The notes: generated by a model not told the origin, from the sequence alone. 53,168 nucleotides of DNA from Candidatus Omnitrophota bacterium (GCA_016928555.1 JAFGKM010000083.1:1-53168); one strand, 5' to 3'. Positions 15,644-26,566 are shown, numbered from the stretch's first letter. Numbers and translations: made by a program.

Positions 15644-16369
15644 CTAATTGCCGTTCTTTATACCTCCGAATCTTCTTTTCCTTCGTCCGTAAGCCCCAAC
15701 CGCCTTGAGAAAATCTTCTTCGCCGAAATCAGGCCATAGCACAGGAGTAAAATAAAACTCAGCATAAGCCGCCTGCCACAAGAGAAAATTGCTTATCCTC
15801 TTTTCGCCGGACGTCCTGATAATAAGGTCTGGCGGGGGGATTTTCCCAGTATAAAGATTTTTTTCAATCAATTCTTCGGTTACGTCTTTTTCCGGCACAC
15901 CTGAACGGACAATTTTTTTAACCGCATCCGTTATTTCCTGGCGGCTGCCGTAGTTAATGGCGAAAACAAGGTTCAACCCCGTATTTTTCCCCGTCATCTT
16001 TTCAATGTCCGCCATAGTCTTTTTAAGAACCTGCGGAAGCTGTCCCCTCCTGCCTATAAAATTCACCTTCACATTGTTTTTGCAGAGATTTTTGCACTCT
16101 GTTCTCAGCCTATGCTCCATAAGACGGAAGAGAAACTCCACCTCGACACGGGGCCTTTTCCAGTTTTCCGTTGAGAAAGAGTAGAGCGTAAGGCATTTCA
16201 CCCCGCATTTATCCGCCGCCTTTACAATCTTTCTGACAGATTCAAGTCCCGCCCTGTGCCCTTCAATCCGCGGAAGGTTTTTCTTCTGGGCCCACCTTCC
16301 GTTCCCGTCCATGACAATTGCTATATGAACAGGCATGATTTCCTTTTTCTTGTTTTTTTCTCTTTTCAT
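15644..16369 (-). CDS. uppS: Isoprenyl transferase (undecaprenyl diphosphate synthase)
   Basis: A 241-residue cis-prenyltransferase that elongates farnesyl diphosphate with isopentenyl diphosphate to the lipid carrier for peptidoglycan. IVMDGNGRWAQKK holds the catalytic Asp and phosphate loop. LTLYSFSTENWKRP, LVFAINYGSRQEI and LIIRTSGEKRISNFLLWQAAYAEFYF are conserved regions III-V. It starts the uppS-dxr-rseP-ispG run. Between it and lptB lies the 125-nt structured element at 16390-16514. Confidence 0.96.
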   Translation of the reverse strand: MKREKNKKKEIMPVHIAIVMDGNGRWAQKKNLPRIEGHRAGLESVRKIVKAADKCGVKCLTLYSFSTENWKRPRVEVEFLFRLMEHRLRTECKNLCKNNVKVNFIGRRGQLPQVLKKTMADIEKMTGKNTGLNLVFAINYGSRQEITDAVKKIVRSGVPEKDVTEELIEKNLYTGKIPPPDLIIRTSGEKRISNFLLWQAAYAEFYFTPVLWPDFGEEDFLKAVGAYGRRKRRFGGIKNGN

Positions 16370-16389
16370 AACTTAGTTCATCCTGCCTA

Positions 16390-16514
16390 ATACCGAGTTG
16401 AGTTCGCAAGAAAGCAAGGCGGCCAGAAGGAGGCAACGAGGCGTATGTAAAAAATACGCCGAGGAAGCCGACGACGCAGCCAACGATGCTCTGTTGATGA
16501 AATCAGCTCGGTAT
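16390..16514 (+). ncRNA. Structured 125-nt element, copy A (candidate RNA or mobile hairpin)
   Basis: Ends pair as ATACCGAGTTGA (16390-16401) with TCAGCTCGGTAT (16503-16514), 12 pairs including one T-G. Inside, GGCGTAT (16440-16446) pairs perfectly with ATACGCC (16454-16460). Unpaired blocks shared with copy B at 23104-23228 are AGGCGG, AAGGAGG, GAGGAAG, CGACGCA and CCAACGA. Copy B is also exactly 125 nt, and its stems differ in a compensatory way. The non-Watson-Crick pairs in both copies are G-T only when read on the plus strand, which is why that strand is given. It is antisense to the lptB-uppS transcript, and its right end shares a base with the lptB stop codon. Function unknown. Confidence 0.6.
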
Positions 16515-17230
16515 CATATCTGAAAATTTTCGCCGAAATACACCTTTCTGGAATCAGGGTGCGAAAGGATTTCTTCCGGAGTTCCTTCTATGAGTATTTC
16601 GCCTTTATTTATCAGGTAAGCCCTGTCGGTAATTCTCAGGGCGTCCCGGACATTGTGGTCGGTCAGCAGTATACCTATACCGTCTTTTTTCAGTCCCACT
16701 ATTGTCTCCTGCAATTCGTAAACCGTCTTGGGGTCGATGCCGGAGAAAGGCTCGTCCAGCAGAAAGTACTTCGGGTTAAGAGTCAGGCTTCTTCCTATCT
16801 CAAGACGCCGCTTTTCGCCGCCCGAAAGGGTGCCGGCCGTATTTTTTCTCATTTCGTAAAGCCCAACTTTCAACAGGGCTTTGCGGCATACCTCTTCCAT
16901 TGCCGTTCTGTCCCTGTAATAGTCTTCCAGAACGATGTATATGTTATCCTCTACGGTAAGCCTGTTGAAGAGCGATATCTCCTGTGGAAGATAGAGCATG
17001 CCCGCCCGCGCCCTTTTCCATACGGGCAGGGAAGTTATATCCGTTTCGTCAAGGAGAATTTTCCCTTTATCCTGAAGGAGAAACCCGAGTATCATTTCAA
17101 AGGTCGTGGTCTTGCCGGCGCCGTTGGGTCCGAGCAAGCCTACCACTTCCCCTTTCTCCACGCTTATGGAGATGTCCGCAACCGCGGTTTTTCTGCCGAA
17201 ATTCTTTTTGAGGTTTATTGCTTTAAGCAT
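16514..17230 (-). CDS. lptB: LPS-export ABC transporter ATP-binding protein
   Basis: A 238-residue ABC ATPase. Walker A is GLLGPNGAGKTTTFEMI, the signature is TLSGGEKRRLEIGRSL, Walker B is FLLDEPFSGIDP and the switch is LLTDHNVRDALRI. The combination GPNGAGKTT, LPQE in the Q-loop and TDHNVR is diagnostic for LptB, which powers lipopolysaccharide movement through LptFG. LptFG and LptAC are not in the window. It begins 3 nt after ruvB ends. The last codon and stop (Ile then TGA) lie in an 18-mer that also overlaps the stop of the DUF6785-like gene near 30910. Confidence 0.95.
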   Translation of the reverse strand: MLKAINLKKNFGRKTAVADISISVEKGEVVGLLGPNGAGKTTTFEMILGFLLQDKGKILLDETDITSLPVWKRARAGMLYLPQEISLFNRLTVEDNIYIVLEDYYRDRTAMEEVCRKALLKVGLYEMRKNTAGTLSGGEKRRLEIGRSLTLNPKYFLLDEPFSGIDPKTVYELQETIVGLKKDGIGILLTDHNVRDALRITDRAYLINKGEILIEGTPEEILSHPDSRKVYFGENFQI

Positions 17231-17233
17231 CTT

Positions 17234-18250
17234 TTAAAAAAGGTTCGTGCTTCCGGGATTGATGTTTATGCCCATATGTTTATAGGCAAGCGCTGTAGCC
17301 GTCCTGCCCTGTGCAGTTTTCTTTATAAAACCCTTTCTCACCAGAAAACTTTCATAAACCTCTTCTATGGTGTCGGATTCCTCTCCCACCGCTATGGACA
17401 GGCTCTTAAGCCCCACAGGACCCCCAGCAAACTTGGTGATGATAACCTCCAGTATGTTTTTATCCATCTCGTCAAGACCTTCTTCGTCAACATCCATCCT
17501 GTCAAGGGCGTGCCTTGAAATCTCCATGTCTATAACCCCTTTTCCCTTCACCTGCGCGTAATCTCTTATTCTCCTTAGAAGCCGGTTTGCAACCCTGGGG
17601 GTTCCCCTTGAGCGTTTTGCTATCTCCGCGGCTCCCTCTTCTGTTATCCCGGTATTGATCAGCCTGGCGGCCCTCTCTATAATCGCCTTTAGCTCTTCGG
17701 AAGAGTAGTAATCCAGCCGGTGCATGATGCCGAACCTGTTTCTTAAGGGAGAGGTAAGCAGTCCGACTCTCGTTGTCGCCCCCACAAGAGTGAAGCGCTT
17801 CAAAGGAATCTTTACTGACTTTGCCTTGGGCCCCTCGCCTATCATTATGTCTATGCAGAAATCTTCCATCCCGCTGTATAGGTATTCTTCAATGTTTCTG
17901 GAAAGCCGGTGAATCTCATCTATGAAAAGGATATCCCCTTCATCAAGGTTGGTAAGTATTCCCGCAAGGTCGCCCGCTCTTTCAATTACGGGGCCCGACG
18001 TGGCTTTTATGTTGACCCCCATCTCATTGGCAAGGATATATGCAAGAGTCGTCTTGCCTATCCCGGGAGGTCCGTGAAAAAGTACATGGTCAAGAACGTC
18101 TCCTCTTTCCTTTGCGGCTTTGATAAAAACTCCGAGGTTTTCTTTCACTTTGTTCTGGCCGACAAACTCGGAAAATCCTTTGGGCCTGAGGGTATTTTCG
18201 TATTTTATATCCTCGCCGGCAGCAATCGGAGACGTTATTCTCTCTTCCAT
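17234..18250 (-). CDS. ruvB: Holliday junction branch-migration ATPase RuvB
   Basis: A 338-residue AAA+ motor. It has [19 protein letters not shown], Walker [15 protein letters not shown], Walker [10 protein letters not shown], sensor 1 [21 protein letters not shown] with the arginine finger, sensor 2 [12 protein letters not shown], and the winged helix ending [12 protein letters not shown]. With RuvA it drives branch migration and with RuvC it resolves junctions. Gap to ruvA is 4 nt. Confidence 0.98.
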
Positions 18251-18254
18251 TTTG

Positions 18255-18842
18255 TTATCCCTTTTTAAGGGCTTCTTTTATAATCTCCTCTATGGACATC
18301 TTGCGTCCTTTTTCCTTCATTATCTTGCCTACGCTGACCGCCGCCTCTCTTCTCTTATAGCCGAGAACGGTCAATGCCTCAACCGCGCTTGCAAAAATCT
18401 CCCTTTCGCTGTCTTCCTGCCTCTCTTCCGAAACAGGAAGCTTTTCAACCTTCTGTTTCAATTCAACTATCAGCCGCTCCCCCGTTTTTTTCCCGACTCC
18501 GGGAACATTGGTGAAAACAGAGGCGTCGTCGGAAAGAATGGCATTATACAACTCGTCTGTTCTCAGCCCGGATAGAATCCTCATTGCCACCTTCGGACCG
18601 ATTCCCGGGACGGAAAGAAGCATAAGGAAGGTTTCTCTCTCCCGTTCCGTTGAAAAACCGAAAAGATTTATTTCTTCCTCCCTTATCTGCTGGAAGGTGA
18701 ACAGTCTGATATTTTCGCCTTCTTCTCCTATGGATTGTGAGGTTTCAAGAGAGACGTTCAAAGTATAACCTACGCCGTTATTCTCTAAAACAACCCTGGC
18801 GGGCGATTTAAAGACCAGTTTGCCCTGAATGTAATAAATCAT
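18255..18842 (-). CDS. ruvA: Holliday junction DNA helicase subunit RuvA
   Basis: A 195-residue RuvA. Domain I (about 1-65) opens [23 protein letters not shown] with the VGYTLNVS strand. Domain II has two helix-hairpin-helix motifs, [16 protein letters not shown] and [18 protein letters not shown]. Domain III (about 150-195) is the RuvB-binding three-helix bundle with [13 protein letters not shown] start at the internal ATG that matches the family; the gene then overlaps the ruvC end by 35 nt. Confidence 0.96.
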
Positions 18843-19311
18843 GCTCTTTTTTATAGTGGAGGTATGCCACCGCCGCTGCGACGGCATCGCTTTCATCAAG
18901 GCTTTTGAACCCTTTATGCCCGGTCATGTGCTCTATCATAAACTGCACCTGTTCTTTTGTCGCAGAACCCTGTCCCGTAATACTCTGTTTTATCTCCCTG
19001 GCCGGCAGAAGACAGAACCCTGTCCCTTTCCTTATTGCGGAACCGATAATAACCCCGGTAACCTGTCCTATTTTTAACGCAATCCGGACATTTTTGCCGA
19101 GATATATTTCTTCAACGGCGACTATATCCGGAGCTGTTTCATCCATCAGGACATCAAATTTTTCAATTATGGCCAGTATTTTTTTTTCATAAGAGGCTCC
19201 CGCGGCAGGAACAATTGCCCCGGACCTAAGCACCGTCTGGCTTCTTTCACTGCCTTCAACAAGTCCGTAACCCACCCTGTTAACACCCGGGTCGACCCCT
19301 AATATTTTCAT
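18808..19311 (-). CDS. ruvC: Holliday junction resolvase RuvC
   Basis: A 167-residue RNase H-fold nuclease. The start MKILGVDPGVNRVGYGLVE carries the first catalytic Asp. VAVEEIYLGKN supplies the second acidic residue, and the C-terminal KSLDESDAVAAAVAYLH the last two. The upstream in-frame extension of 31 codons overlaps the yebC end and does not match the family. Order yebC-ruvC-ruvA-ruvB is the classical one. Confidence 0.96.
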   Translation of the reverse strand: MKILGVDPGVNRVGYGLVEGSERSQTVLRSGAIVPAAGASYEKKILAIIEKFDVLMDETAPDIVAVEEIYLGKNVRIALKIGQVTGVIIGSAIRKGTGFCLLPAREIKQSITGQGSATKEQVQFMIEHMTGHKGFKSLDESDAVAAAVAYLHYKKEHDLLHSGQTGL

Positions 19312-19321
19312 GCTTTTACTG

Positions 19322-20065
19322 TTAGGCGGCGCCGGCCACATCGTCAGGGATGTCAAAATTTGCATAGGCGCCCTGAACGTCATCGTGGTCTTCAAGCGTC
19401 TCAAGCAGTTTAAGAACCTGTTCGGCCGTTTTCCCCTCTACCTTAACGGTGTTTTTGGGGACTAAAGTGACGTTTGCATCCGCCGGCTCAATGCTCTTAT
19501 CTGCAAGAGCTTTTTTTACGTTTTCAAAATTTTCCGGAAGGACTGTTATTTCGTAAACGTCATCTTCGTTTGTCATATCTTCGGCGCCCGCTTCAAGTAT
19601 CATGTCGAGAAGTTCGTCCTCTTTAACCTTTTCCCTGCTTACGGAGATGACTCCCTTTCTTTCAAATATCCATGCCACACTTCCGGCTCCTCCGAGATTG
19701 CCGTTATGCTTGGAAAAAATCGAGCGTATCTCTGAAGCGCTTCTGTTTTTGTTGTCCGTCAGAACTTCAACGTATATGGCCACTCCCCCGGGCCCGTATC
19801 CTTCATAGGTAACCTGCTCAAATTGCACGCCGCCTTCTTCCCCCATCCCTTTCTTTATGGCGCGCTGGATATTGTCGTTCGGCATATTGAAACTCTTCGC
19901 CTTGTCTATAACCATCCTCAGGCGGGGGTTGGTATCAGGGTTGCCTCCTCCGGTCTTTGCGGCCATCATTATTTCCCTGATAAACTTCGTGAACATCTTG
20001 CCTCTTTTTGCATCCGTCGCCATCTTCTTATGCTTGATACTGTGCCATTTGGAATGTCCCGACAT
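19322..20065 (-). CDS. yebC: YebC/PmpR-family DNA-binding / translation factor
   Basis: A 247-residue protein opening MSGHSKWHSIKHKKMATDAKRGK, the invariant YebC/PmpR start. Three-domain architecture is complete, with GGNPDTNPRLRMVIDKAK and the YEGYGPGGVAIYVE block. YebC proteins have been described as regulators and more recently as factors easing ribosome stalling. SD AAGGAGGG decides the start; the longer frame passes through a REP-like cluster. Gap to ruvC is 10 nt. Confidence 0.96.
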   Translation of the reverse strand: MSGHSKWHSIKHKKMATDAKRGKMFTKFIREIMMAAKTGGGNPDTNPRLRMVIDKAKSFNMPNDNIQRAIKKGMGEEGGVQFEQVTYEGYGPGGVAIYVEVLTDNKNRSASEIRSIFSKHNGNLGGAGSVAWIFERKGVISVSREKVKEDELLDMILEAGAEDMTNEDDVYEITVLPENFENVKKALADKSIEPADANVTLVPKNTVKVEGKTAEQVLKLLETLEDHDDVQGAYANFDIPDDVAGAA

Positions 20066-20082
20066 TGTACCCTCCTTATCAT

Positions 20083-20203
20083 CGCAGGCTGAAGACCTGC
20101 AGCTACCCTTGAATTTATTGATAACCGGTAGCCGCAACTCTTTAGGTTGCGCTGTCATGAGTGCGCAGGTTTTCTTTTCGCAGGCTGAAAACCTGCGGCT
20201 ACC
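20083..20203. repeat. BIME-like cluster of three REP-like hairpins
   Basis: Copy 1, 20083-20107 (CGCAGG/CCTGCA stem, tail GCTACC). Copy 2 inverted, 20127-20151 (GGTAGC, stem CGCAAC, loop TCTTTAG, stem GTTGCG). Copy 3, 20179-20203 (CGCAGG, loop CTGAAAA, CCTGCG, tail GCTACC). Reversed, copy 2 has loop CTAAAGA and tail GCTACC with a different but still paired stem. It occupies the gap between the BFN gene and yebC. Confidence 0.85.
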
Positions 20204-20236
20204 CGTTCAGAAATCCGAACGCAAAGACGGATTTCT

Positions 20237-20764
20237 TTACTCTTTTTTCATTTTCGCCCAGAAGTCCTTTGCGCTGATACTCTCTATGTTTTTTCTGAAA
20301 TCCTCCGCTTCCTTCCTGCTGATAGGCCCTGAAAGGTCGCCGGTTTTCAGAAATTCCTTCCCTCCGTAATTTTTAACTATCTTAACGTCCTCCAGAAGCG
20401 TCTCTTCGGCAAAAATCGGCGCCTTAAACCTCAAGGCAAGCGCTATGCCGTCGCTCGGCCGGCAGTCTATCGTTTCTTCTTTCCCGCCGCGCTGAACTAT
20501 CATATTTGCATAATAGGTGTTGTTCTTTACGGTGTAAATTTCCAGCCTCGCAAACTCATACCCTGCTGAAACCATGACATTTTTCATAAGGTCATGCGTA
20601 AGAGGCCTGGAGGAAGCCGATTCTTCCAGCACAAAAAGTATGGACTGCGCCTCAAAAATTCCCACCGCTATGGGCAATATCTTCCCCTTTCTGCTTTTAA
20701 GTATTATAACGGGGAGTTCGTGCAAAAGATTAAGAACAATGCCCGCTATCTCAACTTTTTCCAT
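20237..20764 (-). CDS. Bifunctional-nuclease (BFN, DUF151) domain protein
   Basis: A 175-residue protein starting MEKVEIAGIVLNLLHELPVIILK. The BFN/DUF151 domain spans about residues 1-130: ILPIAVGIFEAQSILF, then RPLTHDLMKNVM, then TIDCRPSDGIALALRFKAPIFAEE, the most conserved block. The C-terminal 40 residues are charged and helical, with a UVR-like flavour but no clear motif. Family members bind or cut nucleic acid; their cellular role is poorly defined. The gene starts 4 nt after the EF-G-like gene ends, so the two are co-transcribed. Confidence 0.85.
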   Translation of the reverse strand: MEKVEIAGIVLNLLHELPVIILKSRKGKILPIAVGIFEAQSILFVLEESASSRPLTHDLMKNVMVSAGYEFARLEIYTVKNNTYYANMIVQRGGKEETIDCRPSDGIALALRFKAPIFAEETLLEDVKIVKNYGGKEFLKTGDLSGPISRKEAEDFRKNIESISAKDFWAKMKKE

Positions 20765-20768
20765 GTGT

Positions 20769-22787
20769 TTACTGCTGCTCCTTCTCTTTTTTTCTCTCAT
20801 CTATTATCTTCTGGGCTATATGAGCCGGCACAACCTCATAGTGGGAGAAGAGCATCGTATATGTCCCCTGTCCGCTGGTTATGGACCTTAACTCATTGGT
20901 ATAATTCGCCATCTCGGCGAGAGGAACCTGCGATTTCACAACCTGCGTCCTGCCGGAGGAAATCATATCCAGAACCTTGCCCCTTTTTGCGTTAACGGTG
21001 CCTATAACGTCTCCCACAAAATCCTGGGGGACCCTTATCTCAACGTTGACAATCGGCTCAAGAAGTATGGGACTGCCCTGCTGAAGCGCCTTCTGCAAAG
21101 CAAGGATGCCCGCAAGCTGGAAGGCGATATCCGACGAGTCAACGGTATGGTATGTCCCGTCGTAAAGCCTCACCCGTATGTCAACCACGGGATAGTATGC
21201 AAGAGAGCCCTTTTTCATGCCCTCCTTTATCCCCTTTTCCACCGAAGGGATAAACTGCCTCGGGATGGCTCCTCCGACAACTTCGTCAACGAACTCAAAA
21301 CCGCCCCCTCTCGGAAGAGGCTCAACCTTGATATAGCAGTGTCCATATTGGCCTCTGCCGCCCGTCTGTTTCTTGTGCTTCCCCTCCGCATCCGCGGGAG
21401 AGGTGATTGTTTCCTTATAAGCTATCTTGGGAATCCCTTTCTCCACCTCGACGCCAAACTTGTTTTTGAACTTGTTTATCGCTATGTCTATGTGGAGGTC
21501 TCCCATGCCGGCAATGATAGTCTCTCCCGTTTCGTCATCCCTGAAAACCTTTATGGTAGGATCCTCTTCGGCTATCTTGTTTATGGCGTTGCCGAGCTTA
21601 TCTTCGGTCCCCTTGACCTTCGGCTTTATGGAATAGGAAACTGCCCCTTCCGGCGGCCTTGTCACAGCAAACGTGAGCGGATTTCCCTGTTCGCAGAATA
21701 TGTCAAACGCCTCAGCGCTGGAGAGTTTGGCAACCGCAACCACTTCTCCCGAAATGGCTTCGGGTACAGACTCCTGTTTCTTGCCCTGCATCCTGAGAAG
21801 CTGTCCCACCCTTTCCTTGGTGTTCTTTGTAACATTCAGGAACTGGGAATTTGATTTAAGTTTGCCTGAAAAGACTCTCAGGTACGAAAGCTTGCCGGCA
21901 AACGGGTCGAAAACAGTCTTTACGACAATTCCGAGCAGAGGCTGACCTTCGTTCCTTGCAACCTCTTTATCCTGTCCGTCCGAAGCCGACGCTTTTAACG
22001 GAGCCAGCTCTTCGGACGAAGGCATATAGTCAAATATAAACTGCGTAAACTCCTTAATTCCAGTCTGGCTCATTGCGGAGCCGGAAAGAACGGGTATCAC
22101 CCTGCCTTCAATAACTCCCTGCTTTATATGCTTTAATATCTCCTCAAAAGGAATTTCCTCCCCCTCCAGGTACTTTTCCATCAGGGCGTCGTCCAGTTCG
22201 GCAATCACGTCCATTGACCGCTGGATATATTTCTGAAAAGACTGATCATTCGTCTGTTTCCCGTCAAGAAGATTTGCGACGCCGGCCAACTTTCCATTTT
22301 CATACAGCGGGCAGGTCACAAGAAGCAGTTTTTTCCCGAATGCGGACTCCATTTCATCCCAGAGCTTGTCAAAGGAGATATCCGGCATATCAAGTTTGTT
22401 AATAAACATGCATGCGGGCTTTCCCTTCCCTGAGATAATCTCCCAGAGCTTTTCGTCTCCGGAAGAAACGCCTTCGTCAGCGGATATGTTCAATGCGGCG
22501 TTATCCGCGGCTTCAACGCCCGCAATCTGCTCTCCTATGAAATCCATGTACCCCGGAGTGTCAACGATGCACATAACCTTGTTCTTGCCGCCCTTTATAT
22601 AGCCGGTGCTCAAGCTTATGCTCATCTGCCTCTTAATTTCTTCTTCATCGAAATCCATGGTTGTACTGCCTTCGCTCACCGCTCCCATCCTGTCAATCAT
22701 GCCCGCGCCGTACAGCATCGCTTCAGCAAGCAGTGTTTTACCAGTCTTGTTTCCTCCGAAAATCCCCAGGTTGTAAATACTCCCCAT
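20769..22787 (-). CDS. Elongation factor G-like GTPase (EF-G paralogue)
   Basis: A 672-residue five-domain translational GTPase. The P-loop is IFGGNKTGKTLLAEAML, G3 VDTPGYMDF, G4 INKLDMPD. The switch I region reads DFDEEEIKRQMSISLS instead of the EF-G RGITI element. This marks the EF-G-like subgroup, not the canonical translocase. Domains II-V follow, with GRGQYGHCYIKVEPL in domain IV and GTYTMLFSHYEVVP at the end. The canonical fusA is expected elsewhere. Proposed roles in the subgroup include translation under stress, but none is established here. Start chosen by SD AAGGAGG; the extra 22 codons upstream are not conserved. Confidence 0.88.
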   Translation of the reverse strand: MGSIYNLGIFGGNKTGKTLLAEAMLYGAGMIDRMGAVSEGSTTMDFDEEEIKRQMSISLSTGYIKGGKNKVMCIVDTPGYMDFIGEQIAGVEAADNAALNISADEGVSSGDEKLWEIISGKGKPACMFINKLDMPDISFDKLWDEMESAFGKKLLLVTCPLYENGKLAGVANLLDGKQTNDQSFQKYIQRSMDVIAELDDALMEKYLEGEEIPFEEILKHIKQGVIEGRVIPVLSGSAMSQTGIKEFTQFIFDYMPSSEELAPLKASASDGQDKEVARNEGQPLLGIVVKTVFDPFAGKLSYLRVFSGKLKSNSQFLNVTKNTKERVGQLLRMQGKKQESVPEAISGEVVAVAKLSSAEAFDIFCEQGNPLTFAVTRPPEGAVSYSIKPKVKGTEDKLGNAINKIAEEDPTIKVFRDDETGETIIAGMGDLHIDIAINKFKNKFGVEVEKGIPKIAYKETITSPADAEGKHKKQTGGRGQYGHCYIKVEPLPRGGGFEFVDEVVGGAIPRQFIPSVEKGIKEGMKKGSLAYYPVVDIRVRLYDGTYHTVDSSDIAFQLAGILALQKALQQGSPILLEPIVNVEIRVPQDFVGDVIGTVNAKRGKVLDMISSGRTQVVKSQVPLAEMANYTNELRSITSGQGTYTMLFSHYEVVPAHIAQKIIDERKKEKEQQ

Positions 22788-22917
22788 TCTTTTATCCTCC
22801 TTAAAAACAACAAAATAGACCCAATTCCCGCCTCTCCATGCAAAGACGGGCAAAAAGGATTGATTAAGACTGCCTCAAAACCGGTATTTAGCCCGGCGTT
22901 TCTGAATTTGCGGGATT

Positions 22918-22946
22918 ATTATATCAGATTTTCCCGCTTCTGGGAA
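22918..22946 (-). promoter_or_regulatory. Possible promoter for the EF-G-like/BFN operon
   Basis: Minus strand TATAAT (22918-22923), 17-nt spacer and a weak -35 TTCCCA (22941-22946). Predicted leader about 125 nt. The stretch 22788-23240 otherwise holds only this, a C/G-run palindrome and the 125-nt element. Confidence 0.45.
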
Positions 22947-22998
22947 ATCTATAGTATTGCGGGAGATTGCTTATAGGGATAAAAACACCGCAGAGATA

Positions 22999-23075
22999 AA
23001 TCCCCCTCAGTCCCCCTTTTTCAAAGGGGGAGAGATTGCCTTCCCCCTCCTTAGAAAAAGGAAGGTCGGGGTGGA
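22999..23075. repeat. C/G-run palindromes
   Basis: AAATCCCC and runs of C, TTTTTCAAA centre, runs of G, followed by a second CCCCCTCC...AAGGTCGGGG hairpin. Same family as those flanking rseP. Confidence 0.65.
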
Positions 23076-23103
23076 TTTGAAAGAAGAAGCAAGGAAGATA
23101 GTA

Positions 23104-23228
23104 CCCTCTTTCAAGACACCCGGAGAGTGAGGCGGTAAGGAGGAAACAACGCAGGCATACGTGTAAAAGGTATGTCGAGGAAGTTTCCGACGCAACCAAC
23201 GAAACTATCGGGGTGTCTTGGAAGAGGG
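23104..23228 (+). ncRNA. Structured 125-nt element, copy B (candidate RNA or mobile hairpin)
   Basis: The ends form an 18-pair stem: CCCTCTTTCAAGACACCC (23104-23121) with GGGTGTCTTGGAAGAGGG (23211-23228), one T-G pair. The inner hairpin pairs GGCATAC (23154-23160) with GTATGTC (23170-23176), starting at exactly the same offset as in copy A. A GGAAAC / GTTTCC pair may add a third helix. The conserved single-strand blocks match copy A while the stems differ. It starts 13 nt beyond the 5S rRNA 3' end. Confidence 0.6.
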
Positions 23229-23240
23229 GAAATAAAAATG

Positions 23241-23357
23241 TCCCTGGCAACACCTACTCTCCCACACCCTTTCGAATGCAGTACCATTGGCGCTGAAAGG
23301 CTTAACGGCCGTGTTCGGGATGGGAACGGGTGTTTCCCCTTCGCCATGGTTGCCAGA
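23241..23357 (-). rRNA. rrf: 5S ribosomal RNA
   Basis: About 117 nt on the minus strand. Helix I pairs CTGGCAACC with GGTGTTGCCAG. The conserved CCCATCCCGAACACGG loop region, the TTAAGCC segment and the loop E/helix IV part (GGTACTGC, GGGAGAGTAGG) are present. No 16S or 23S sequence lies on either side, so this is an unlinked 5S gene with its own promoter. Ends are accurate to a few bases. Confidence 0.95.
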
Positions 23358-25057: not shown

Positions 25058-26566
25058 ATGAAAGACAATCTTAAAATGCTGGTTATAGGGGATATTCACT
25101 ATAGCGCGGCGGAGGAAGCGGCGGCTTCCGCTCCCGGCAGGCATGCCAAATACGGGCTGGAACTCCTGACAAGGGCGCTCAGGCGCTTTGCCGGGGAAGA
25201 AAAACCGGACGTTCTTGTTATTCTCGGAGATGTTACCGACAGCGGCGGCAGACAGGAAGCGAATGATGCAATGATAGCGGTTGAAAAATCCGGCATACCG
25301 GCGGTCATTATCCCTGGCAACCACGACGCACCTGGAGGCAGGCCGAAACCCCTGCCGATAAAAAACTTTCTTCTCTACCCTTTCGTTGACAGTTACCAAG
25401 AAGATGACAAATGCACACGCAGGGAAGAGGACATTGAAAAATTCCGACTTGCGGTTAAAAACAATCCGGGTAAAAAAATCATAGCCCTTCAACATAACCC
25501 CGTTTACCCCATGATAGAAGACGATTATCCCTATAACCTGCGTAATGCGTACAGTGTTCACAGGGCTTATGCGGAAAACAACGTAATCCTTTCTTTGAGC
25601 GGACACTACCACCCGGGAAAGAATTTGACATATAAAAGCGGTGAATCAAAAACCCTCACGTTGAAAGCATTTCAAGGAAGAGTTCAGGGTAAAAACGGAG
25701 TCGGATACTTTACGGTGCCAGCACTCTGCGAATCTCCTTTCCGGTATGCCGTGATTGAAGTGCGGGGCGATAAAATCAGCGCGGATGAATACGCCTTGAG
25801 AAACCCCGTGCCTTTATGCGATAACCACTGCCATACGCAGTTTGCCTACTGCGCGGAAGACGTTACCGTAGAGAAAGTGCTTGAAAGAGCTTCTCTTCTG
25901 GGGATGGACTACGTCTGTTTTACCGAGCATGCAGACCAGCTGTATCTTACCCGCGAGGAATACAGCCGTATGAAATACCTGCAGGACGCCGGCATACTTA
26001 TCTCTGCCCGCAAGAATGGAACCGACAGGGTGAAAGCGTTCCGCGAAGCGGTTAAACAAAGCGGCTCTGCAATGGCGAAGGCGGGCCTTGAGGTTTGCCC
26101 CGACGCTTCGGGAGGCATCACCCTCCTGCCGGAGGACAGAGAAGGGCTGGATATGGTCATAGGCGCAATACACTTTCTACCGGGGGATTTTTCACATGCG
26201 GATGAAAAAGAGGTGCAGAGAGGTTTTATGCAGGCGTTTGAAACTCTTGTAAACAATGACATAGACGTGCTTGCACATCCGTTCCGCCTGTTTTCACGGA
26301 GCGGATTGAAACCGCCAAGAGATCTCTTCAGGCCGGTTGCCGGCATGCTGAAAAACTTCGGGGTGGCGGCGGAGCTTAATTTCCATACAAATAAACCTTC
26401 TCCGGAGTTTTTTGAAATTTGTCTGCGGGAGGGAATAAAGATATCATTAGGGACGGATACCCATAACCTCTTGCAGGCAGGGGAGTTTTGTAAGCATCTT
26501 GAGTTCTTGAAAATGCTGGGTATTTCAACGGAGCAAATAGGAAAGATATTGTATCTGTTATCCTGA
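25058..26566 (+). CDS. Metallophosphoesterase-PHP domain fusion
   Basis: About 502 residues with two different metal-dependent phosphatase domains. N-terminal calcineurin-like domain (about 1-260): VIGDIHYS, VILGDVTDSGG, IIPGNHDAPGG, ALQHNPVYP and SGHYHPG give the full set of metal ligands. C-terminal PHP domain (about 265-500): DNHCHTQFAY, CFTEHADQLY, IGAIHFLPGD, VLAHPFRLF and LGTDTHNL, resembling histidinol-phosphatase-type PHP proteins. Both sites look intact, so two hydrolytic steps on one phosphorylated compound are possible (inference). The start is uncertain: no SD is seen; a TTG at 25037 and an ATG at 25076 are alternatives. Confidence 0.82.
   Translation: MKDNLKMLVIGDIHYSAAEEAAASAPGRHAKYGLELLTRALRRFAGEEKPDVLVILGDVTDSGGRQEANDAMIAVEKSGIPAVIIPGNHDAPGGRPKPLPIKNFLLYPFVDSYQEDDKCTRREEDIEKFRLAVKNNPGKKIIALQHNPVYPMIEDDYPYNLRNAYSVHRAYAENNVILSLSGHYHPGKNLTYKSGESKTLTLKAFQGRVQGKNGVGYFTVPALCESPFRYAVIEVRGDKISADEYALRNPVPLCDNHCHTQFAYCAEDVTVEKVLERASLLGMDYVCFTEHADQLYLTREEYSRMKYLQDAGILISARKNGTDRVKAFREAVKQSGSAMAKAGLEVCPDASGGITLLPEDREGLDMVIGAIHFLPGDFSHADEKEVQRGFMQAFETLVNNDIDVLAHPFRLFSRSGLKPPRDLFRPVAGMLKNFGVAAELNFHTNKPSPEFFEICLREGIKISLGTDTHNLLQAGEFCKHLEFLKMLGISTEQIGKILYLLS

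Follow-up and report, generated by a model that had tools for sequence, protein, structure and literature searches.

A 53,168-nucleotide (nt) stretch of DNA from a Candidatus Omnitrophota bacterium (GCA_016928555.1, JAFGKM010000083.1:1-53168; hereafter the window) contains two sequences of 125 nt, elements A and B, which raise the question of what kind of genetic entity they represent, because a sequence-only reading had left the choice between a structured RNA and a hairpin-ended mobile element of no described family. All coordinates below follow the numbering of the window, which corresponds to contig C12 of an assembly of 94 contigs and 1.95 Mb. We find that A and B are probably two copies of a mobile DNA element that is small and non-autonomous and resembles a miniature inverted-repeat transposable element (MITE); its body is one conserved rod-shaped hairpin. 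Insertion duplicates a TNA trinucleotide target, in many cases the stop codon that closes a gene, and the duplication leaves this codon intact. Furthermore, paired substitutions maintain the plus-strand fold of the element in bacteria that are only very distantly related, even where the termini have diverged.

Direct reading of the sequence bears out that both elements are exactly 125 nt long, and that their terminal stems, mutually unrelated in sequence, nonetheless pair over 12 bp in A and 18 bp in B. The pairing of the inner hairpin is maintained between A and B via paired changes, also as first described. The conserved blocks that had been called unpaired are indeed present and conserved, but they are mostly tandem G.A/A.G internal loops with single G-C pairs between them, which makes the element a continuous rod. 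A and B thus share one architecture, consisting of an outer stem, short stems split by 2x2 or 2x3 internal loops rich in tandem G.A, and the inner hairpin. Folded as plus-strand RNA, A has a predicted energy of -53.1 kcal/mol (z = -7.1) and B of -63.8 kcal/mol (z = -10.4), with weaker folds for the minus strand (-44.0 and -47.6 kcal/mol, respectively), and none of 200 shuffles folded as well as A or B on the plus strand.

The likeness of A and B lies far beyond chance, because the same genome contains 22 dispersed matches to A by blastn and 31 by a covariance model, R1. This model was built solely from 20 own-genome copies and its structure was derived from those same 20 sequences; an independent test comes from searching other genomes. 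Both elements belong to the training set and score 130.8 bits (A) and 102.2 bits (B), with none and one, respectively, of the 36 well-kept pairs broken. In the 20-copy alignment, 91.5% of the pair cells hold standard pairs, compared to 32-39% when the partners are slid, two-sided changes occur at 33 of the 42 pairs where shuffles give 17.3, and covariation scores 0.432, compared to 0.191 in the control. The own-genome copies form classes with very different outer stems, each class being intact. One enlarged copy, L115 (G000:C51), has extra sequence within both arms and retains the leader and the inner hairpin. The elements measure 120-150 bp and are non-coding, with loop lengths that vary out of frame. 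A protein-coding reading was considered, since one frame is open in some copies, and was rejected because the loops differ by 1-5 nt and class-2 copies contain stops.

Carriers within the phylum are patchy, comprising the own genome and 10 others among 35 genomes. In a wider sample of 386 genomes, about 350 of them outside the phylum, we counted as matches full-length hits to R1 at E <= 1e-5, and found them in 17 of the ~350 outside genomes, several of which have 3-9 copies. Outside the phylum, a full-length member also lies on plasmid pGLOV01 of Trichlorobacter lovleyi SZ (26215-26337; 62.1 bits to R1). Twenty-four distinct outside sequences (L205-L224 and L090), never seen by R1, were fitted to the model: 89.4% of cells are paired, 300 cells show two-sided changes compared to 89 in shuffles, these changes fall at 35 of 41 pairs, and covariation reaches 0.787 against 0.194 in the control. 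Folded independently by minimum energy, nearly all of them adopt the same rod. The outer stems are wholly different among genomes, even among neighbouring copies (L217, L206), and the blocks AAGGCG, AAGGAG, GAGGCGTAY, GAGGA, CGACGA and GCCAACG persist throughout. A covariance-model search of the kind that the sequence-only reading had proposed has produced many further copies with compensatory changes, in the own genome, in the phylum and beyond it.

Comparison with Rfam 15 (4227 families, gathering and permissive thresholds) of the window and of members from other lineages returned no family matching the element; the matches obtained were tRNA, 5S and SRP (signal recognition particle) RNA, together with sub-threshold chance matches only. 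Phage and plasmid searches using A as query gave no match. Several other candidates were discarded: the covariance model identifies the IMG/VR pattern matches L091-L093 and a Microseira match (L081) as non-members, and a Halobaculum BLAST match was taken as chance on account of its location inside a coding sequence.

Such pairing could in principle be a by-product of repair, with template switching at near-perfect palindromes copying one arm onto the other and generating two-sided changes without selection, and the outer stems, often near-perfect and of arbitrary sequence, are what arm-to-arm copying would give. This mechanism predicts no strand bias. We found that the pairs of phylum copies include 136 G-U against 41 A-C, and those of outside-phylum copies 51 against 5; with G-U far above A-C, the plus strand is the constrained fold, in agreement with the strand first proposed. 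As the covariance model favours G-U over A-C, part of this bias may reflect detection; the copies found by blastn show it too. Mutation bias was rejected as its cause, since unpaired positions show C>T at 4% and G>A at 13%, that is, no excess of C>T. Template switching also predicts the loss of mismatched loops, whereas different lineages have retained both the tandem G.A loops and the core sequence. We therefore regard it as an improbable source of the pairing.

Mobility is supported by target duplications, near-identical dispersed copies, an empty site and the patchy distribution, so that the mobile-element branch of the earlier alternative is the one that stood. Copies of recent origin end in TA...TA and are flanked by a duplicated 3-bp TNA target. 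This is clearest in G025, where 11 near-identical copies at unrelated sites each open with a 27-nt leader, (TAC)TAATTTGCCGTCAAAATTGTAGGAA, which occurs in that genome solely together with the element, and are mostly flanked by a TNA repeat (TTA, TGA, TAA or TCA). A 3-mer match at a leader offset of 27-29 nt is also observed in the own genome, G001, G028, G020 and G033, making six genomes with G025; offset 28 alone gives a match in 13 of 62 copies, the top score over all offsets tried. In leader-bearing copies the imperfect terminal repeat consists of TACTAATTTG.CGTCAAA on the left and the 3′ arm of the hairpin on the right. In G077 the hairpin itself ends TACTAAGTTG...CAACTTAGTA, with flush TNA repeats in five copies, and one copy in G342 has a TNA duplication flush with the hairpin. 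One copy, L038, is flanked by a 14-base direct repeat, GAAGAGGCCGACGA, far longer than the usual TNA duplication.

Element A provides the empty site. It had been described as antisense to lptB-uppS, and both genes are indeed on the minus strand; more exactly, A separates the two, abutting the stop codon of lptB and contributing the initial base of the start codon of uppS. The mobile unit spans 16369-16513 and so exceeds 125 nt, including a degenerate 5′ leader whose similarity to the recognisable type (TACTAATTTGCCGTCAAAATTATAGTAA, held there by 18 copies) is no better than that of shuffles. Deleting 16369-16516 joins ttttca to tatctg and yields an lptB stop/uppS start overlap, ATGA, and the related genomes G006, G008, G010 and G014, which lack the element there, have exactly that overlap. 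Insertion at TGA duplicated TCA (plus strand), so that the lptB stop was kept and the uppS start was kept using the terminal base of the element. Many further copies are flush with the stop codon of a converging gene, a siting that is as expected from a TNA target combined with the survival of harmless insertions. Gene sides point toward the element (73 of 118) more often than away from it, indicating that promoters are avoided.

Three observations weigh against a purely transpositional account. Leaderless copies, B included, mostly have no recognisable duplication, and in B itself neither a target duplication nor a leader was recognised. The fold is paired even where the terminal sequences no longer look functional, which simple selection at the level of transposition does not explain. 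Finally, no transposase with matching ends was found in searches with PF01609, PF13586 and PF01797 in 11 genomes, some of whose assemblies are incomplete.

Accordingly, we weighed whether A and B belong to a stand-alone structured RNA family, kept locus by locus for the host (in regulation, RNA processing or protein sequestration), with mobility being ancient or incidental. The outer stem pairs at 9.9 of 11 positions in 18 leader-bearing copies and at 9.8 of 11 in 35 leaderless ones, although the arms of the latter are twice as divergent from the terminal repeat; the leaderless copies alone still show 52 G-U against 12 A-C, and A has no broken pair beside its decayed leader. In addition, 12 of the 101 copies are in the vicinity of genes for tRNA, 5S, RNase P or SRP RNA, as a raw count. 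Such a family would be hard to reconcile with the clear target duplications, the empty site and the patchy distribution. The copies have no preferred orientation to the neighbouring genes, which itself is an ill fit for a simple cis-acting RNA and in that respect counts against any reading of this type as well as against ours, and no insertion site common to two species was recognised among the species examined. We consider a host RNA family unlikely and retain the MITE-like element as the better account. The persistence of the fold in leaderless copies would then mean either that it is maintained in place or that leaderless lineages move via other ends. The role of the fold is most likely at the nucleic-acid level, where it would be bound in folded form by some protein.

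Under the MITE-like reading, the transposase of a full-size insertion sequence, expected to end in TACTAATTTGACGTCAAA..., would move the element in trans. PF01609 (DDE_Tnp_1) has matches in 4 of the 11 genomes, none flanked by the terminal repeat, and PF13586 (DDE_Tnp_1_2) has no match in the 11 genomes. At two places, G001:C44 and G018:C60, a candidate left end of a larger element runs into the end of the contig; a 55-bp match beyond the repeat there was set aside, as it turns up again in unrelated scraps and identifies no gene. Other small elements, in G033, G001 and G028, have the leader-type end as well. L168 and L169 (G033) and L172 (G001) are minimal 24-bp palindromes, TACTAATTTGACGTCAAATTAGTA, with TNA repeats, amounting to transposon ends joined with almost nothing between. 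L186 and L189 (G028) are elements of ~110-120 bp with the same terminal repeat and an unrelated CCCCC-rich body.

A different enzymology, in which an HUH or tyrosine enzyme moves the folded plus strand through a single-stranded-DNA recombination site as in integron attC or REP/RAYT systems, would account for the conservation of the fold and core rather than the ends, and for the plus-strand bias. Integron attC sites are single-strand hairpins with conserved structure and variable stem sequence, a likeness that the present element shares; its copies are dispersed singly, however, with no cassette arrays. Y1_Tnp genes are present in 6 of the 11 genomes examined, but were not found in the carriers G025, G020, G001, G012 and G027, some of which have incomplete assemblies, and no copy adjoins the Y1 genes examined. 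Transposition of REP and IS200/IS605 elements is not known to leave a target duplication, whereas TNA duplications are observed here. With no linked Y1_Tnp (an integron integrase was not searched for) and with duplications present, we judge a recombination site of this kind very unlikely.

The MITE-like element is not tied to one type of target duplication. Three of the four copies in G126 are bracketed by direct repeats, 8-11 bp long, that lie about ten bases past the modelled hairpin. These repeats represent a different kind of target duplication, and the same core appears to travel with two or more types of transposon. This conserved sequence, AAGGCG..AAGGAG..GACGAGGCGTAY loop RTACGYCGAGGA..CGACGAAGCCAACGCAG, would thus behave as a module that different transposons may have carried, with TNA duplications in the own phylum, G077 and G342, and with 8- to 11-bp duplications in G126. 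Presumably the core is propagated or tolerated only if its plus strand folds, whether as RNA or as single-stranded DNA. We tentatively propose, at somewhat below even chances, that this core is an independent, horizontally spread module of ~70 nt with tandem G.A loops, covarying on one strand and carried by the small elements of unrelated transposases.

Like bacterial MITEs generally, the element is shorter than 200 bp and non-coding, with many dispersed copies, target duplications and an empty site. As for ends shared with an autonomous insertion sequence, its repeats are common to other small elements and no transposase is linked; an IS5-type DDE transposase with the same ends was not found in 11 genomes, several of them incomplete. 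In form it resembles ERIC/IRU, a 127-bp enterobacterial MITE that is an intergenic, non-coding, long imperfect hairpin with A-G mispairs, TA termini and a target duplication (PMC2229807). The likeness in size, single imperfect hairpin with A-G mispairs, TA ends, duplication, intergenic location and lack of coding is one of form only; the sequences appear to differ, and the present element has a 3-bp TNA duplication and a fold that extensive two-sided substitutions maintain among distant lineages. Rickettsia palindromic elements, of 105-146 bp and with many copies (PMC2229807), are similar in size, palindromic form and copy number; they lie in frame inside genes, whereas the present copies are found between genes or flush with stop codons. 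The TNA duplication is of the type that marks the IS1031 group of the IS5 family (PMC12016507). No matching transposase gene or terminal repeat was linked to the element, and the quoted repeat, GAACCTGTCTAGTATCT, is unlike TACTAATTTG; since the IS1031 transposase was not found, membership in the group is not claimed.

A further published resemblance is to a repeat of Geobacter metallireducens, reported by Aklujkar et al. 2009 as ‘24 predicted short RNA elements’ that are intergenic and multicopy with a central palindrome, GRCGTAGCGCTGCTACGCC (PMC2700814). This palindrome resembles the inner hairpin GGCGTAY...RTACGCC, and a Geobacteraceae plasmid holds a full-length member of the present family. 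The main text of that paper gives no fold, covariation, duplication or distribution (PMC2700814). By comparison of the central palindrome alone, the 2009 repeat may be the same family, so the claim of no described family holds for Rfam 15 with this caveat.

The features discussed are collected in the table below.

Table. Elements A and B, the parts of the A insertion and the adjoining genes, in window coordinates.
Feature	Position	Strand	Remarks
Element A hairpin, 125 nt	16390-16514	+	Outer stem 16390-16401/16503-16514, core with tandem G.A loops, inner hairpin GGCGTAT/ATACGCC
Element B hairpin, 125 nt	23104-23228	+	18-bp outer stem, sequence unrelated to other copies
Left target-site duplication of A, TCA	16366-16368		TGA on the minus strand, overlaps the uppS start codon; direct reading
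Right target-site duplication of A, TCA	16514-16516		lptB stop codon TGA (minus strand)
Degenerate 5′ leader (left transposon end) of A, TAACTTAGTTCATCCTGCCTA	16369-16389	+	Assigned from duplication and spacing
lptB, lipopolysaccharide export ABC transporter ATP-binding protein (putative, named by sequence character)	16514-17230	-	Operon neighbour upstream of A
uppS, polyprenyl diphosphate synthase	15644-16369	-	Downstream of A; A of its ATG is the terminal base of the element
5S rRNA gene	23242-23357	-	Rfam RF00001, 101.4 bits; 3′ end faces B, 13 bp apart

Orthologues of uppS are present in 33 of the 35 genomes of the phylum. Element B does lie beside the 5S gene, as had been noted. Nine of the 101 copies are near tRNA genes, and in eight the gene is only a few bases away from the 3′ end of the hairpin, again as a raw count. 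A tRNA starts or ends near the hairpin 3′ end at L030, L031, L034, L072, L212, L217 and L233; one tRNA-flanked copy has a second tRNA on its 5′ side, 23 bp off. L040 and L240 neighbour, respectively, an apparent RNase P RNA gene, recognised by eye, and an SRP RNA gene, identified with Rfam. Just upstream of B, window positions 23000-23076 hold a CCCCCTTT...AAAGGGGG repeat of the AATCCCCC type, and another element copy, L116 (G000:C85), is interrupted by a repeat similar to that type.

Small palindromic repeats abound in bacteria, and their hairpins are usually regarded as incidental products of transposon ends. In the present family, hundreds of paired substitutions preserve a single fold, on a single strand, among distant lineages, in elements that differ in their ends and target duplications. 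With a covariance model now available for a family absent from Rfam, and with Trichlorobacter lovleyi (pGLOV01) as a cultured carrier, the element offers a testable case of a small mobile element carrying a functional structured nucleic acid. If the proposed independence of the core is true, the core would be a domain of RNA or single-stranded DNA, either selfish or protective of the host, and not the by-product of one insertion sequence.

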